Shown here piece after piece: positions 490 through 32,374 of a stretch of DNA of 40,154 nucleotides; position 1 is the first letter of the stretch; each line of letters starts with the position of its first letter. Location of the stretch: positions 1 to 40,154 of IMG/VR virus record IMGVR_UViG_3300050821_005496. One strand, 5' to 3'. The stretch comes from a virus. A program made the translations under genes and the position numbers. The notes beneath the pieces are model-generated. The model had not been told where the DNA came from. It searched no databases and was given only the letters and a program-made list of their open reading frames with translations.

Positions 490-986
490 TTTCTAATAAT
501 TCCAGAAATGAATTCTGCAGGAATAATAGTATTAAATCTCAATTCACACAATTCATAATATACATAATCAGGTTTACTAAATTTTTCATATTCTAATTTA
601 TTTTTTAATCTTTCTCTTTGCAATTCTAAATTACCGCCTAAATTTTTATCCATATGAGTTTTAACCCATTTTTGTGGTAAATTAAATTTAATTACAACAC
701 GTTCACTAATAGGCGTAGATTTAACTTTAGCTCCTGCTTTTCTGAAAGAAAATTCTCCACCAACTCCTGACATAGCTGCATAACCTAAAGCAGTATTGGG
801 GTCAAATGCTAAAGAAATCATACCAGTTTTAACATCTTTTTTAGTTAAACCATTTTTCATTATATTATCTAAATTATCTTGATGGGTTCCATGATACATT
901 ATTAATGGATCAGCATCTTCCCACCAACCTATTTCTGGTTGCCAATCCTTTTCTAATAAGAAAATTAGTTTTTGGGCTTTATTCAT
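486..986 (-). CDS. ADP-ribosyltransferase-like protein with shared N-terminal targeting peptide
   Basis: 166 residues. The N-terminus MNKAQKLIFLLEKD is the repeated leader found on many genes of this window, with a possible prohead-protease site after L-L-E12. The rest resembles the ART/KptA fold: MYHGTHQDNLDNIMKNGL (His32 in the Y-H-G-T motif), SLAFDPNTALGYA (Tyr69) and a late YYELCELRF segment (Glu145/Glu148). This would give an H-Y-E-type triad for NAD-dependent ADP-ribosylation or tRNA 2'-phosphotransfer. It overlaps the portal gene start region by four bases. Known parallel: T4 Alt is a capsid-packaged ART injected with the DNA to modify host RNA polymerase. A similar role here is inference. 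The fold call is by motif only. Confidence 0.6.
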   Translation of the reverse strand: MNKAQKLIFLLEKDWQPEIGWWEDADPLIMYHGTHQDNLDNIMKNGLTKKDVKTGMISLAFDPNTALGYAAMSGVGGEFSFRKAGAKVKSTPISERVVIKFNLPQKWVKTHMDKNLGGNLELQRERLKNKLEYEKFSKPDYVYYELCELRFNTIIPAEFISGIIRK

Positions 987-2959
987 TTATCTCTCTTAAT
1001 ATAATTAGCTAAAACACCACGATATCTAGAATTAGTAACACTTTCTTCTTTTTGAGTACTAATATATCTCTTAGGTTTATCCTGAGCTACTCTAGTAGCT
1101 AGAGGATTATTATCCTTATGTATCTTAGGTTCAATAGGTGGTATATTAGGCACGATAGATTTATTAACCCCAGGGATATTAGTAGGAACAGCTACTGGAT
1201 TACCTGGAGCAGTATTGTCCATTTGCATAAATAAGTTATTAAATCCAACCACATTGAGTTGTTCATTCATCCAACGCATAAATCCAACTACATCTACTTG
1301 ATCAGCAATTGCTGGATGTTGGGTTCTATCTGCCATTTCCATAACAAAGTCTTTTACATTACGTATTAATCCAACAGTAGTATCAATAAATTCTAGTTTA
1401 TCTAAGTTATCAATCTCAATAAGTTTATTATAAAATTCTACTTTAATATCTTGGGTATCAAATTTATACCCCTTATTAGCAAGATGAATATAAACAATTT
1501 GACGAATACCTTCTTCAATTGTTTTCTGAATAGCTTTTAGCTTACGAAGATAACGGGCATATTTTTTAAGTATTTCCCCCTTAGCTGATTCACCTTCAAA
1601 TAACAATTCATAAGGAATACCAATAGAAGCACAAATGACTTTGCGAATATCAGTAACTGAGGCAAGAAGATCATCTGGTTCATCTTGTTTATAATCTAAT
1701 TTCTGAAGTCTACCTGTATCTCCAAATATTGGAACAGCTTTCAAACGACCAGCTGTACCCATAATATTTTCTATAGTAATTTCTTCTAAGATTGGATCGA
1801 CTCCAACCTTTTTATTCATTAATCCTTCAATTTGTTTAGTTGCTTCAATGGCCTTTTCAATGTCATAACCAGGTGGTACTTGAACCCCGACCAAGGTCCC
1901 GTTAGATAATTTACTGAGCTTAGTAGCAGGGACTAAAGCTTCTAGTAATTCTAATTCTTTCAGTTTAGAAACGATACCGTAAATCATGGATTTACCGACT
2001 CGAATAAACTTAGGAATTTCTTTTAGTTCTTTAGGTAGATGTTCCTTTTTTATATTAAATTCTTTAAAAATATCTACTTTAACTCTGGCAGAATTAAGAG
2101 AGAATTTAACAAAATCAGCAGGTTCAGCTCTTTTTATATTACCAGGATTCTTACCACTACCAGCATCACCTATTAAATAACCTTCAGGTGTATTCCATTT
2201 AGTTAAACCAACAACTGATCCTTGATCCAAATTATCTAAAAGATCAATTAGTCCATATTCTTCATTAGGATCTATTTGTGGTTGTTCTAAATTCTTTTGT
2301 ATTTGAGGTCTACTTGGATCTTGACCAGAATATGGTGCATAGTTAGGATTTGTTCCAGTAGGAGAAGGACCTCCACCACCTGGTGTTAACTCATTAAATG
2401 ATTCATTTTCCTGTTCTTCACGCTCTTTAGCAGCAATTACATCAGGGTGTGGATTAATAACAGTCTTTAAAGTATATTCACCATATGCGCAAATATCTGG
2501 AGCAAGAATCATTGCTACTTGATCTAGATCAAATTTCTCTTCTAAATAATCAATTTCTTTTTGTAATTCTGGACGATCGGATGAAATACTAAGAACATCA
2601 CCAGTACCAATTTGAGGTGCTAATGCGTCTTCTACTAGTTGAGTTAAAATAACATCAACCATATAGAATACTCGCATTTTATCTACTTCACGTATTAACT
2701 TCTTACGAGTCTCGGCAACCTTCATATACACAGCCCCATAAGCTGCTGCTACATGAAAATCTGTGATCATATCACGTCTACCATTACCAGATTTCAATGC
2801 TTCTTTAATAGCTAAAGATTGTGCTATTAATACAGGATCATTTATCCTATAACCTTCATACATTTGTATGTCAGCTTTAGCTGATGCTAATTCTTCAGTT
2901 AGTTTTGTAACTTCAGGATTTACAATAGATTTTGATTTAAACCAATCAAATATAGCCAT
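983..2959 (-). CDS. portal protein
   Basis: 658 residues, normal for a myovirus-type portal. It would form the dodecameric ring at the unique capsid vertex through which DNA is packaged. Seen: N-terminal MAIFDWFKSK; a mixed domain with DILEE/PILEEITIENIMGT-like strands; then the typical portal segment DDLLASVTDIRKVICASIG, IPYELLFEGE and a long basic helix; then a C-terminal proline-rich low-complexity tail (about residues 590-640) that may be disordered. A Gly/Pro-rich insert lies near residues 190-215. The gene sits directly downstream of the large terminase in the transcript, the usual packaging pair. Start chosen at ATG 2959 with AAGG seven bases upstream, inside a small hairpin. Confidence 0.85.
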   Translation of the reverse strand: MAIFDWFKSKSIVNPEVTKLTEELASAKADIQMYEGYRINDPVLIAQSLAIKEALKSGNGRRDMITDFHVAAAYGAVYMKVAETRKKLIREVDKMRVFYMVDVILTQLVEDALAPQIGTGDVLSISSDRPELQKEIDYLEEKFDLDQVAMILAPDICAYGEYTLKTVINPHPDVIAAKEREEQENESFNELTPGGGGPSPTGTNPNYAPYSGQDPSRPQIQKNLEQPQIDPNEEYGLIDLLDNLDQGSVVGLTKWNTPEGYLIGDAGSGKNPGNIKRAEPADFVKFSLNSARVKVDIFKEFNIKKEHLPKELKEIPKFIRVGKSMIYGIVSKLKELELLEALVPATKLSKLSNGTLVGVQVPPGYDIEKAIEATKQIEGLMNKKVGVDPILEEITIENIMGTAGRLKAVPIFGDTGRLQKLDYKQDEPDDLLASVTDIRKVICASIGIPYELLFEGESAKGEILKKYARYLRKLKAIQKTIEEGIRQIVYIHLANKGYKFDTQDIKVEFYNKLIEIDNLDKLEFIDTTVGLIRNVKDFVMEMADRTQHPAIADQVDVVGFMRWMNEQLNVVGFNNLFMQMDNTAPGNPVAVPTNIPGVNKSIVPNIPPIEPKIHKDNNPLATRVAQDKPKRYISTQKEESVTNSRYRGVLANYIKRDK

Positions 2960-3012: not shown

Positions 3013-5934
3013 TCAGGCCTTTTTCTTCCACATTATATCCATAATATTTTCAGGTAATGGTCTTTGATGTGCTTTTCTAACTACTGTTTGTTCAACCATA
3101 TGTAATAATTTATATTTATGTGAGTTATTTACACAATTAAACACACTACCTGATACACCATCAGAAATATCCTTTGACCCTTTAGTACCATCTATATTTT
3201 TTGTTGGGTGATCAATTTTATTTCCATCAGGTTCTGATTCAAGTTCAAATATTTCTCTTTTTAAGATTTCATTTTTAGGACCCATCCATCTATTTTCATA
3301 CATTAATGATCTCAATACAGCATAAGGTTCTGGGGTTCTATCAACAGAAAGTAATTCGGATTCAAAACCTTCTTTAATAAGTAATTGAATCATATCAGCT
3401 GATTGAAAACCATCAAGTGTAATTTTAGATATTGGATATCCTAGTTTAGACAGCAATGAAAGAAATTGCCTCACTTTATATAACGGCACTTCTTTACCTG
3501 GCTTACACTCAATTCCAAAAGCCCATTCAGTAATTATTCTTGGTACATTTTCTGTTACTTCTTTAAATGAAGAAGGATCTCTAATAGTTCTATCTATGAA
3601 TCCACCTACATAACTAGCACCAATACCAAGACGGTCACCTTTCAATCCTATATCTATATGAATAGATCGAGGAATATGAGGATTTAATGGGCTACTAAAA
3701 TAGTCTTTTACTATTGCATAATTCATTATCTGATCTTGTTCATCATCAAAATCTAATTGGAATGTATCTGGAAATAGTTTTGATACAGAGAGTGATTCAC
3801 TAACCTTATCTTTAAGTCTAAAGAACTTATAATTAGATACAGTAGGTGATCCAGCAATATCTCGAAGTGAGGCTCCAATATCTGATTCAAATCTATCTTT
3901 ATATTCAATTGGTACATGAATACAATTTTCAGGTTCTTTTTCAATCAATGGGTGTTTATCATCTATAATTTCTGGTTGACGAATATCTGAACCTTTATAT
4001 ACATAAAACTTATTTCCTGAATATATAGGTTTATCATCTTTATGAGTAATTACTTCCCAGATTGGGGCCTGATCAACATAAACCCCAGGCTTACGTTTAT
4101 ACTGATCAATAATTTTGTTAACTACGGAAAACTTATCAGTCTCGGAAGAATCAATCCATATCTTACCAGGAATACCACCACCTTCTGATAAAGGTTTGAT
4201 AAATCGAGACTCCATACGAGTGAGTAAAGAATTAAATGTCTCGTATACTTGATCACCAATAATTTCAAAGTTAGCCTCTGACATTATGGCACCAAATACT
4301 GCTTTTCCTAAAGAATGGGTAATTCTTGAACCCATAAAAAAATCAATATTCTTAGGAAATAATGTTGGTCTATCTTTAGACTTAGTATTTAATAATGGTA
4401 ACATTGCTGAAAAATAAGGACTAGACGCCCACATCTGAGTTAGTTTATCCCAAACAACATCATGAGTCAATGATAATGTTACGTTAAATAGTGCAAAAAG
4501 AATAGTTGTACTAGGAAGAAGACCATAAGTCTTTTGAGGATTAGATAAGGATAAAAGTTTATGCAGATCATAACATACACCTGCACAAGCTATACTTGTT
4601 TTTCCTCTTCCAATCGAATTATGAGCTACAATACCACTAGAAAGTACAAAGTTATGATTTTTTTCTATTGTTAAATCATATACTTCTTCATAACCTAATT
4701 TTTTAATTGAAATTACTGAATGATTATAAGTAGGATCTAATTTTCTTATTTCTTCTACTTTGGCTTTATATTCTGGTGAATCTTTACCTTTGAACCTTAT
4801 TGTAGCACTTAATCCTTGTTTTAAACCGATTAATCTTTTTTCTTCTTCTGATTTATTTTTTCTCAATTCTCGCATATGTTCAGCACGTCTGCGAGATTCA
4901 TTTCTACCTTGTTCAGATTTATTATATGCTATTAAATGATCAGTACCAATTCCAGGATATAATTCATGGGCTCTTTTACCCATGTTAATTGCTCTTTCAC
5001 TATTATTTGAAAGCATTTCATTTCTTAATGATTCTTTGTGTTGATCTCTAGAATCTTGATAATTAGGATCATTCCATAAAAGATTTCTACCATAATCTTG
5101 TCTTTCTTTTAATAATTTATGAAATTCTTCTTTACCAATTTCTTTTTTCCATTTTTCTAAAATCCTAGCACCATGTTTAGCATGATATTTCAAATGGATT
5201 TCTTCATCTAAAATACAAAGATTTGAAGGAGTATCATCTAACTTATTAAAATTCTTATGATGAACATGTTGTGTCCATTGTATACAACTTTTCCATTTAG
5301 CAACAATTTTATATCTTGCATTCCATTGATAAGTTTTTGATTCTGGATTTTTAAAACAATGATATCCAGTACTTTCATCATAATAATATGGATATAAAGA
5401 AATACCTTCTTTTAATCCTTTATCAATTGATATCCATTTTTTATTTCTAGATAGAAATTTATGATTACTAGTACACTTAATTTTCTCACCATTATCTAAT
5501 GTAATTTCGTAGATTTCCTTAATACCGGTAGAAAATGCATTTAATACTTTAGCTGGTTCATATTTTTTATTATTTATATTGAATGACATTACCCAATAAT
5601 CTGATTTCTTAGTAAGAAATGTTTCCACAATTTCTTTTATTGGAGTATGAGTTCCATTCAATAATATTACTTTAGTATCACCTGCTAAACAACCACGCAG
5701 GTTTACAAGGTAATAAGGATCATGAAAGGGATTAGGATATATATCATTTAATACTTCACGCCAATATGGAAATAAATTACCTTGAAAATAATTTCCAAGA
5801 TATTTATCTGAATCTATAAATTCATTAATAGTTACTGGGGTAGAATCAAAACTGGATAATGAAGCATATAATGCACATAATTGATCATAGTCCAATTGAG
5901 AGATATATGGTTCAATATCTTTTTCATTTTTCAT
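3013..5934 (-). CDS. large terminase subunit (TerL) interrupted by an intein
   Basis: 973 codons; removal of a 358-residue intein leaves a 615-residue terminase of ordinary size. TerL pumps DNA into the prohead by ATP hydrolysis and cuts the concatemer. After splicing, residues join as L-R-G81 + S-I-G-R-G-K-T, which recreates the Walker A loop GSIGRGKTS. A Walker-B-like VFGAIMSEANF follows. The C-terminal RNase-H-fold nuclease is visible as SIHIDIGLKGDRLGIG (first Asp), ITLDGFQSAD (second acidic site) and GSKDISDGVSGSV (third Asp). The intein therefore sits inside the ATPase site, and the unspliced precursor should be inactive. It lies just upstream of the portal gene. The N-terminal motif DIEPYISQLDYDQ is partly duplicated at 6237-6284. 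Confidence 0.9.
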   Translation of the reverse strand: MKNEKDIEPYISQLDYDQLCALYASLSSFDSTPVTINEFIDSDKYLGNYFQGNLFPYWREVLNDIYPNPFHDPYYLVNLRGCLAGDTKVILLNGTHTPIKEIVETFLTKKSDYWVMSFNINNKKYEPAKVLNAFSTGIKEIYEITLDNGEKIKCTSNHKFLSRNKKWISIDKGLKEGISLYPYYYDESTGYHCFKNPESKTYQWNARYKIVAKWKSCIQWTQHVHHKNFNKLDDTPSNLCILDEEIHLKYHAKHGARILEKWKKEIGKEEFHKLLKERQDYGRNLLWNDPNYQDSRDQHKESLRNEMLSNNSERAINMGKRAHELYPGIGTDHLIAYNKSEQGRNESRRRAEHMRELRKNKSEEEKRLIGLKQGLSATIRFKGKDSPEYKAKVEEIRKLDPTYNHSVISIKKLGYEEVYDLTIEKNHNFVLSSGIVAHNSIGRGKTSIACAGVCYDLHKLLSLSNPQKTYGLLPSTTILFALFNVTLSLTHDVVWDKLTQMWASSPYFSAMLPLLNTKSKDRPTLFPKNIDFFMGSRITHSLGKAVFGAIMSEANFEIIGDQVYETFNSLLTRMESRFIKPLSEGGGIPGKIWIDSSETDKFSVVNKIIDQYKRKPGVYVDQAPIWEVITHKDDKPIYSGNKFYVYKGSDIRQPEIIDDKHPLIEKEPENCIHVPIEYKDRFESDIGASLRDIAGSPTVSNYKFFRLKDKVSESLSVSKLFPDTFQLDFDDEQDQIMNYAIVKDYFSSPLNPHIPRSIHIDIGLKGDRLGIGASYVGGFIDRTIRDPSSFKEVTENVPRIITEWAFGIECKPGKEVPLYKVRQFLSLLSKLGYPISKITLDGFQSADMIQLLIKEGFESELLSVDRTPEPYAVLRSLMYENRWMGPKNEILKREIFELESEPDGNKIDHPTKNIDGTKGSKDISDGVSGSVFNCVNNSHKYKLLHMVEQTVVRKAHQRPLPENIMDIMWKKKA
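4618..5691 (-). other. intein with HNH homing endonuclease inside TerL
   Basis: 358 residues. It begins with Cys (CLAGDTKVILLNGT, block A) directly after L-R-G of the terminase and ends VLSSGIVAHN, followed by Ser (blocks F/G with penultimate His and terminal Asn). Block B is CTSNHKFL (T-x-x-H) about 75 residues in. Between the splicing halves, around intein residues 142-170, lies an HNH nuclease motif HVHHKNFNKLDDTPSNLCIL, followed by a basic helical region rich in RRR, KNKSEEEKR and similar, probably the DNA-binding part. This is the usual mobile-intein arrangement: protein self-splicing plus an endonuclease that would cut intein-free terminase alleles. All splicing residues appear intact, so it is likely active. 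Confidence 0.9.
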
Positions 5935-30348: not shown

Positions 30349-30876
30349 TTAAATATCTTTAAATGTTTTATTATTAACAATATAACTGATATTTGATTTA
30401 CATGTATTAAAATGTTCTCTTAATGCTTTATTAGACCATCCAAGAGACTGTAATGATCTAATTTGAATAATATCAGAATCAGATAATTTTCTATTTCCTT
30501 TTACTGGAGGATGCTTTAAGGTTTGGAATCTATGAGTATTGATATTGGACTGAGTAACTAATTCAAGATTATTAGGATTATCATTATTAACATTGCCATC
30601 TTTATGTTTAACTTTAAGATGTGATTCTAAATTACCAACAAATCTAGCATACATAATTCTAGATCTTTTAAGTAATTTTCTATTATTTTTAGGCCCATAT
30701 CCAAATCCAATAGAACCATCTCTACATTTACGTAATCTTACTTCTCTCCAATCTTTCAAAATATGACCTTGTTTACTGAATAAAGAAAATATTATACCAT
30801 CATAATCAATAAGATAGTGTGGATCATTTAACAATTTATAAATATATTCATCATTGGTTGCATATGATTTATTCAT
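30349..30876 (-). CDS. HNH homing endonuclease
   Basis: 175 residues from ATG 30876 (an upstream in-frame TTG at 30906 is less likely). Motifs: YDGIIFSLFSKQGHILKDWR (NUMOD4-like entry strand pair), RSRIMYARFVG, HLKVKHKDGNVNNDNPNNLE then LVTQSNINTHR (HNH core with H-K-D-G-N-x-x-N-D-x-x-x-N-L) and a C-terminal DNA-binding helix-turn-helix (SDSDIIQIRSLQSLGWSNKA). Typical free-standing phage HNH endonuclease that spreads itself by cutting relatives lacking it. It is inserted in a row of small genes and not inside a recognised intron. Confidence 0.8.
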   Translation of the reverse strand: MNKSYATNDEYIYKLLNDPHYLIDYDGIIFSLFSKQGHILKDWREVRLRKCRDGSIGFGYGPKNNRKLLKRSRIMYARFVGNLESHLKVKHKDGNVNNDNPNNLELVTQSNINTHRFQTLKHPPVKGNRKLSDSDIIQIRSLQSLGWSNKALREHFNTCKSNISYIVNNKTFKDI

Positions 30877-30886
30877 TTTAAATCTT

Positions 30887-31021
30887 TCAATTTGAAGAAT
30901 ATTCAATAGTTAAATAAACAATAGAACTACTAATTATAACTGTAGTTACTATTACACCAGTAAAAAATCCATACCAATATGCTTCTTTATAAGATTTATA
31001 TAATTCATAATAATTCTTCAT
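30887..31021 (-). CDS. small single-span membrane protein
   Basis: 44 residues: MKNYYELYKSYKEAYWYGFF, then a hydrophobic span TGVIVTTVIISSSIVYLT and a short tail. TAATG overlap with the upstream membrane-protein gene supports translation. Tyr-rich N-terminal cytoplasmic helix. Function unknown. Confidence 0.55.
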   Translation of the reverse strand: MKNYYELYKSYKEAYWYGFFTGVIVTTVIISSSIVYLTIEYSSN

Positions 31022-31632: not shown

Positions 31633-31812
31633 TTAATCTTTACTTTCTAAATTAATAATATTTTTACATACTTCTTCAAGAATTTGTTTTTCAACTAATA
31701 ATTTTGCTATTTCTGTATCATGATTTGGTGGAATTTTCATTTCCATATAAGCTGAAGCAATTTCTTTTACAGTCATTTTATCTTTTCTTATTTCAATGCA
31801 TAATATACACAT
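31633..31812 (-). CDS. small helical protein downstream of the structured RNA
   Basis: 59 residues from ATG 31812, chosen because GGAGATAGT precedes it; a second ATG lies at 31776. MCILCIEIRKDKMTVKEIAS, then MEMKIPPNHDTEIAKLLVEK. An N-terminal C-x-x-C and a helical body. It is the first gene after the GC-rich RNA candidate at 31831-31974, whose 3' U-run is only a few bases before this ribosome binding site. Confidence 0.5.
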   Translation of the reverse strand: MCILCIEIRKDKMTVKEIASAYMEMKIPPNHDTEIAKLLVEKQILEEVCKNIINLESKD

Positions 31813-31830
31813 ACTATCTCCAAATAAAAA

Positions 31831-31974
31831 GAATCAGGTAGGACGCGACTCCTACTATAGCCTTCTTTACGGCCCAGATTGTATTCCCTCCCGGGTCATA
31901 TCCTGCGTGTCTCTAATGGCTCATTCAACCAAGGTTACCCCAAGTGTACACCATAGCTTCCACGCCTCTGATTC
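31831..31974 (-). ncRNA. GC-rich structured RNA candidate, family unknown
   Basis: 144 bases with about 51% G+C (counted), far above the surrounding sequence. Minus-strand folding by eye: outer stem GAATCAG/CTGATTC closing the whole element; GCGTG/CACGC enclosing a CTATGG/CCATTAG arm; CCCGG/CTGGG with a 13-base loop; GCC/GGC; and a perfect GTAGGA-GTCGCG-TCCTAC hairpin. TTTTTATTT follows the outer stem, like a terminator tail. The stop codon of the deaminase gene overlaps the first base of the element. Not a tRNA (no T-arm or CCA-type acceptor seen). It could be a regulatory leader of the next gene or an independent phage ncRNA. I cannot name a family. Confidence 0.65.
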
Positions 31975-32374
31975 AAACTTTAGTAACTTTAATTCCTGCA
32001 TTCTTTAATAATTCAAGTGAACTTTTATCACGATATTCAACATCATAATATACTTCTTTAATACCAGCATTAACAATAAGTTTAGCACAGTTTGTGCAAG
32101 GAGAATGAGTAATAAAAATCAATTTATTTTTAACTGAATAATTAGCTTTTATAATAGCATTACATTCAGCATGAATATGACCACAATTTCCAGGAACAAG
32201 ACTTTCACATTCATTAGATAACCCACGAACACCACCATTATAACCAATTGCATCAATACAAGTCATATCTTCATTAGTTATTACACAACCTACTTGTAAT
32301 CTAGAACACGTGGATCTATTAGAAAAGACCCACGCTACTTCCATCATACTATCAATTAAACTAGGTCTACTCAC
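31973..32374 (-). CDS. dCMP/cytidine deaminase-family enzyme
   Basis: 133 residues. Zinc and catalytic motifs are intact: GHIHAECNAI (His68, Glu70) and HSPCTNCAKLI (Cys93, Cys96), plus the N-terminal NRSTCSRLQVGCVI strand typical of ComEB/dCMP deaminases. It would convert dCMP to dUMP to feed thymidylate synthesis; size is slightly short for the family but complete. The stop lies at the edge of the ncRNA candidate. Confidence 0.8.
   Translation of the reverse strand: MSRPSLIDSMMEVAWVFSNRSTCSRLQVGCVITNEDMTCIDAIGYNGGVRGLSNECESLVPGNCGHIHAECNAIIKANYSVKNKLIFITHSPCTNCAKLIVNAGIKEVYYDVEYRDKSSLELLKNAGIKVTKV

Follow-up and report, generated by a model that had tools for sequence, protein, structure and literature searches.

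A predicted structured RNA family of uncultured phages, with a tRNA-like outer geometry and a chromosomal branch in one order of Pseudomonadota

Few families of phage noncoding RNA are known to have an intricate and conserved fold, and GOLLD, ROOL and the T4 RNAC remain without assigned functions. GOLLD and ROOL, which are large and structured and occur in phages and prophages, have unknown functions and are often located near tRNA genes; a Met-tRNA is found upstream of GOLLD env-38, and tRNAs occur within some GOLLD linkers (PMC12286853). RNAC (species 1) and RNAD, from the tRNA region of T4, are small late phage RNAs whose roles are also unknown (PMC3014915, PMC9697503). These are the nearest known relatives in kind of the RNA described here, with which they share the setting and not the fold. 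As with GOLLD and ROOL, copies of our family adjoin tRNA-Met and some contain tRNA-like inserts; however, they span approximately 120–306 nt, versus more than 800 nt for many GOLLD, have a different core and are not matched by the Rfam models. T4 RNAC is alike in that L191:1409-1547 contains the word AGUAGCGU twice and has a tRNA-like 3′ end, but we rejected it as a homologue: covariance model R1 did not match the region (best score of 9.5 bits, to a bare stem) and, in the RNAC homologues from Karamvirus and Gelderlandvirus, the 3′ AGUAGCGU is in a stem and changes, indicating that the loop is not conserved.

The window examined is a stretch of 40,154 nt from an uncultured phage (IMG/VR record IMGVR_UViG_3300050821_005496). 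The RNA is 144 nt long and is read from the minus strand, from its 5′ end at 31974 to 31831, in the same orientation as all the adjoining genes; it lies between the gene for a dCMP deaminase (31973–32374, minus strand; phrog_174, E 2e-39) and an ORF of 59 aa without an assigned family (31633–31812, minus strand). A preliminary description, made without database searches, had delimited here a G+C-rich island in AT-rich DNA, closed by the stem GAATCAG/CTGATTC and situated between the deaminase stop codon and a ribosome binding site. Its boundaries proved exact, the G+C content is 50.7%, compared with 25.2% for 2 kb of flanking DNA, the minus strand does run from GAATCAG to CTGATTC, and a GGAG (31821–31818) precedes the ATG at 31812. 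GAATCAG begins within the deaminase stop codon TGA (31975–31973), at its middle base. Also found as described were a U-run, UUUUU, right after CTGATTC (31826–31830, minus strand), where many relatives have T-rich tails, and a 6-bp hairpin, GTAGGA-GTCGCG-TCCTAC, which in the family corresponds to a stem of 5 bp closing the conserved loop AGUCGCGU of 8 nt. Elsewhere in the window, an HNH endonuclease gene (30349–30906, minus strand) is located around 0.9 kb downstream of the RNA, and the large-terminase ORF (3013–5934, minus strand) contains, by eye only, an intein-like insert from CLAGDTKV... to ...VVAHN. The portal protein (983–2959, minus strand) is approximately 31% identical to those from Rhizobium phages of the Kleczkowskaviridae, and the window phage is therefore a distant relative of this family.

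Searches for described elements were consistently negative. Rfam 15 gave no matches up to E 10 for positions 31750–32050, including those to known ribozyme families, and no gathering-level match anywhere in the window; likewise, ARAGORN and Rfam identified neither a tRNA nor a tmRNA in the window. This supports the initial impression that the island resembles no tRNA or known riboswitch motif. Blast comparisons of the element and of the consensus words against the INPHARED phages retrieved only short chance matches. The predicted folding energy of the minus strand was −48.1 kcal/mol (z of −1.40), which is not significant as 17 of 200 shuffled sequences were equally good, and the plus strand gave a z of −0.85. 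With such unremarkable values, energy alone is no proof of structure, and the proof has to be comparative, from covariation.

Relatives of the RNA were not found by following its neighbours. Homologues of the deaminase are common, although not syntenic, and none was accompanied by a copy of the RNA. Six distant cultured or named relatives, reached through the portal, the deaminase or a flanking protein, were also without a copy by the model (Rhizobium phages RHph_TM30, TM39 and TM21B, Vibrio phage Va2, an uncultured 44-kb phage and Myxococcus phage Mx1); as a positive control, the same model finds the copies in 46 records that carry them. A scan of IMG/VR with the hairpin only produced mostly chance matches, and L043–L047 and relatives, L051, L054 and L058 were discarded as members for this reason, but L048 and L053 are real: these loci, from unrelated phages, contain GGCGTGGAAAGCTGTGG, GAGACACGC and the hairpin in the same order and outside protein genes. 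The phage region L054:2401-3500, for its part, contains a tRNA that is exceptionally long (100 nt by Rfam), together with a noncoding, G+C-rich stretch in which the hairpin GTAGGAGTCGCGTCCTAC occurs without the remaining core. Two-motif patterns seeded by the finding of L048 and L053 yielded dozens more copies, bringing the total aligned to 99, in 93 clusters at 80% identity and from diverse uncultured phages (57 in alignment A2 and 42 in A4). The window itself holds a single copy according to the covariance model (92.3 bits, E 9.7e-21 with R1).

All members share a common plan, in the order P1, a 2-nt linker (usually CG), P2, an internal loop, P3, a middle domain, P5 and the 3′ strand of P1, with approximately 25 near-invariant core positions and variable peripheral stems. 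In the window (all coordinates on the minus strand), the 5′ strand of the 7-bp closing stem P1, GAATCAG (31968–31974), overlaps the deaminase stop codon and pairs with CTGATTC (31831–31837); its assignment rests on the covariation within the family and on the 7-bp length. After the linker AG comes P2, whose strands GCGTG (31961–31965) and CACGC (31905–31909) correspond to the near-invariant GCGUG/CACGC of the family. The internal loop, with the family sequences GAAAGC against RGAGA, consists in the window of GAAGCT (31955–31960), one A fewer than the consensus GAAAGCU in alignment A1, and TAGAGA (31910–31915; consensus URGAGA). P3 pairs ATGG (31951–31954) with CCAT (31916–31919), and a variable middle domain of 49 nt (31856–31904) separates P2 from the P5 hairpin, GTAGG-AGTCGCGT-CCTAC (31838–31855), with the conserved loop AGUNGCGN. 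P5 is a 5-bp hairpin that directly abuts P1 without a linker, a linker being absent in 88 of 90 copies; its loop is 8 nt long in 89 of them and is AGUNGCGN in nearly all 90. The window copy thus has P1, P2, P3, P5 and the AGUNGCGN loop and meets the requirements for membership in the R1 family.

As judged from these alignments, the predicted stems P1, P3 and P5 show covariation in almost all of their pairs. In alignment A1, changes on both sides were seen in all eight pairs of P1, all four of P3 and all five of P5, while A2 contained 309 double-change cells versus 83.6 in shuffles; pairing in A2 was 95.8%, and dropped to 24–50% after sliding the partners by 1 to 3 columns. P2 seldom varies, yet compensatory changes appear in divergent copies, such as GAGUG/CACUC in L176 and ACGUG/CACGU in L184. 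The former led us to abandon a putative pairing of the GCG from the P5 loop with the CGC from P2, because the loop of L176 is unchanged. These alignments favour structure, since the presence of P1 and P5 was a criterion for choosing the members of A1, and the model served to fit A2 and A4; we therefore searched with a pattern blind to P1, comprising only CTGGAGACACGC and GAGTMGCG. It retrieved 33 sites, of which 31 had the P5 stem, and every one of the 29 sites with an upstream GCGTGG had at least six of the seven P1 pairs at a fixed offset, against a chance expectation that we estimate at around 1.3% per site. P1 pairing was 86–100% over its first 7 bp, fell to 61% at the eighth and was approximately 40% further out, which is the background for these sequences. 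Covariation in homologues was the deciding test proposed for the original suggestion of a structured RNA of unknown family, and it was passed. Conservation in the family extends to P2, P3 and P5 among the internal helices suggested, whereas those from the middle domain are copy-specific or remain unproven. We conclude that the putative RNA from the window belongs to a large, previously undescribed family of structured RNAs.

The middle domain varies in length, from around 30 nt up to 120 nt or above, and in many members could fold into an H-type pseudoknot, with 1–3 nt between its last strand and P5. When ranked together with 20 shuffles each, 34 of 75 copies were among the best four of 21, versus approximately 14 expected. 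The window copy shows no H-type pseudoknot by the rule used.

A sister branch of the RNA occurs in chromosomes from one order of Pseudomonadota, where a single-copy version was found in 26 of 76 genomes with R1 and in 29 of 76 with the branch model R2. One of these 29, L264:1515-1640 (G354), is a truncated remnant that conserves the 3′ half and has lost the 5′ half with P2. The chromosomal branch lacks P3, its core being GCGUG-GAAYGCAGA-CACGC, and its version of the pseudoknot has ACGCAC/GUGCGU and GGCCAU/AUGGCC as crossing helices, with two covarying pairs in the latter. In most of the inspected chromosomes the RNA follows a treY-like gene (maltooligosyl trehalose synthase, by eye), with a different gene in the others; the downstream genes vary, and are in the opposite strand at some sites (L235, L237). 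A TGTAA-like hexamer resembling a promoter is found 14–18 nt before P1 in 26 of 26 chromosomal copies, although the pattern was chosen after inspection and the sequences are related. Across eight chromosomal loci, Rfam gave one sub-threshold match in all, outside the RNA coordinates. Copies elsewhere in cellular genomes are rare: there were matches in 2 of 299 sampled Pseudomonadota, in 1 of 288 genomes from the phylum of G042, which was G042 itself, and, in the class of G185, in one genome outside the order among 385 (G913), with a copy that reads as phage-type and sits just before a ribosome site.

In phages, the copies are intergenic, usually in the same strand as their neighbours, and lie beside unrelated functions, including dCMP deaminase, GroEL, an IlvE-like aminotransferase (by eye), terminase, RNA ligase, methyltransferase and helicases. 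The RNA often starts from a few to 40 nt past the upstream stop codon and, at many phage loci, a Shine-Dalgarno sequence begins from a few to around 20 nt after P1. A consistent class of downstream gene, as would be the criterion for a riboswitch, was not seen across the phage and chromosomal loci inspected. Whole phage records contain one to three diverged copies, some of them in tandem, 16–83 nt apart and with no intervening gene. In G002 and G039, a gene for the same protein (52% identity) follows the copy, while the RNA sequences have diverged; the maintenance of this orthologous site despite RNA divergence indicates selection on structure. Two genes for IlvE-like aminotransferases (by eye), L122:11739-12656 and L110:2-895, 73% identical to each other, are directly downstream of the RNA or of the RNA plus a tRNA-Met, and an endonuclease VII-like gene adjoins L183.

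The outer part of the RNA has the geometry of a tRNA. The acceptor and T stems of tRNAs form an uninterrupted stack of 7 plus 5 bp, with a 2-nt linker on the 5′ side, and the family likewise has a 7-bp closing stem, a 2-nt linker, an arm and a 5-bp hairpin stacked without a linker. Nevertheless, the family lacks a T-loop (UUCRANY) in P5, a CCA in the 3′ flanks and an anticodon, and ARAGORN identifies none as a tRNA. The resemblance is one of shape and not of membership, and this is not an ordinary tRNA. Similarly, it shares its outer geometry and the presence of pseudoknots with tmRNA, but has no tag and no match to tmRNA with ARAGORN or Rfam. Text typical of a tRNA T-arm was found inside P3 of four copies (L048, L063, L102:8400-8614 and L204), with the whole insert of L102 weakly aligned by the Rfam model for tRNA-Sec (E 0.17). 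By eye, the P3 arm of L204:86-280 reads as a circularly permuted tRNA, with a T-arm, acceptor strands joined by UUCG and a D-arm. Three of the five tRNA genes present on member loci are at 120 nt or less from a copy and in the same strand, two of them for tRNA-Met; the association with tRNA genes rests on these five only.

The conserved fold, the unrelated contexts, the multiple and tandem copies and the single-copy chromosomal branch are what the comparison of sequences itself supplies. We judge it somewhat likelier to be right than wrong that they reflect a new family of structured noncoding RNAs, mainly from tailed phages, that stand alone, are excised by tRNA-processing nucleases and act in trans, an inference from shape and context made without data on expression, processing or phenotype. 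Phage copies would be co-transcribed with the adjoining genes, as phage tRNAs are, and the RNA would be cut out at the edges of P1. Since the continuous 7 plus 5 bp of P1 and P5 have the dimensions of the acceptor and T stems of a tRNA, host tRNA-processing nucleases, such as RNase P, would be the likeliest to excise it. The mature RNA may then bind a host RNA, the ribosome or a protein through the invariant GAAAGC/RGAGA internal loop and the AGUNGCGN loop, although this is a guess.

A stand-alone RNA is favoured over a riboswitch tied to one gene by the unrelated neighbours, the tandem copies and the arrangement in the chromosomes. On the other hand, the position of phage copies, often shortly before a ribosome site, would also be compatible with control in cis or mRNA processing. 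A cis-acting 5′ leader, either a riboswitch or an attenuator in which P1, together with either the U-run or the adjacent ribosome site, serves as expression platform for the next gene, would explain the closeness of the Shine-Dalgarno sequence in many phage loci, the U-run immediately 3′ of P1 in several copies and the riboswitch-like combination of a variable P1 with an invariant core. We consider it unlikely, however, as the downstream genes have no function in common, tandem copies have no gene between them, and the chromosomal copies are downstream of genes and, at some sites, next to genes in the opposite strand. Rather unlikely, in turn, is that the RNA protects mRNA, its compact pseudoknotted fold stopping exonucleases and stabilising the upstream or downstream message: the frequent start from a few to 40 nt past a stop codon, the location directly after the treY-like gene in most of the inspected chromosomes, the irrelevance of gene identity, the pseudoknot and the tandem copies all agree with this role, but the strict conservation of core and loop sequences exceeds the needs of a plain barrier, and the promoter-like hexamer of the chromosomal copies suggests independent transcription.

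A ribozyme whose self-cleavage divides polycistronic phage mRNA at intergenic sites would likewise be compatible with a generic intergenic placement in multiple and tandem copies, and with some 25 near-invariant core positions surrounded by variable peripheral stems and pseudoknots. No ribozyme family in Rfam matches the RNA, though, there are no conserved nucleotides outside P1 that could mark a cleavage site there, and it is bigger than most small ribozymes, so that we find this, too, rather unlikely. Hardly tenable is the idea of a mobile or parasitic element spreading between intergenic sites, despite the several copies per genome, the HNH gene at around 0.9 kb in the window and the endonuclease VII-like gene beside L183, because its ends are variable and covarying instead of fixed, the copies within a genome are highly diverged, with one kept at an orthologous locus, and no constant enzyme is associated with it. 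Returning to the stand-alone RNA, a more specific and only tentative proposal, which we would not expect to hold in full, is that of a class of trans-acting phage RNAs with a tRNA-like outer half, present in several diverged versions per genome, cut by tRNA-processing enzymes and targeting a core host machine, from which one bacterial order may have domesticated a copy as a chromosomal gene, unless it was itself the source for the phages.

Our claim of novelty is at the level of the RNA family: it has no Rfam match, and we found neither a description of it nor its motifs in such a context in the open-access PMC literature, although publication outside of this literature cannot be excluded. Being small, widespread in uncultured phages, present in multiple copies and strongly backed by covariation, the family should be solvable and testable and, because of the chromosomal branch, it could be tested in uninfected bacteria, unlike an RNA found only in phages. 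Additionally, its covariance model would allow the annotation of a feature that is now missed in phage genomes.
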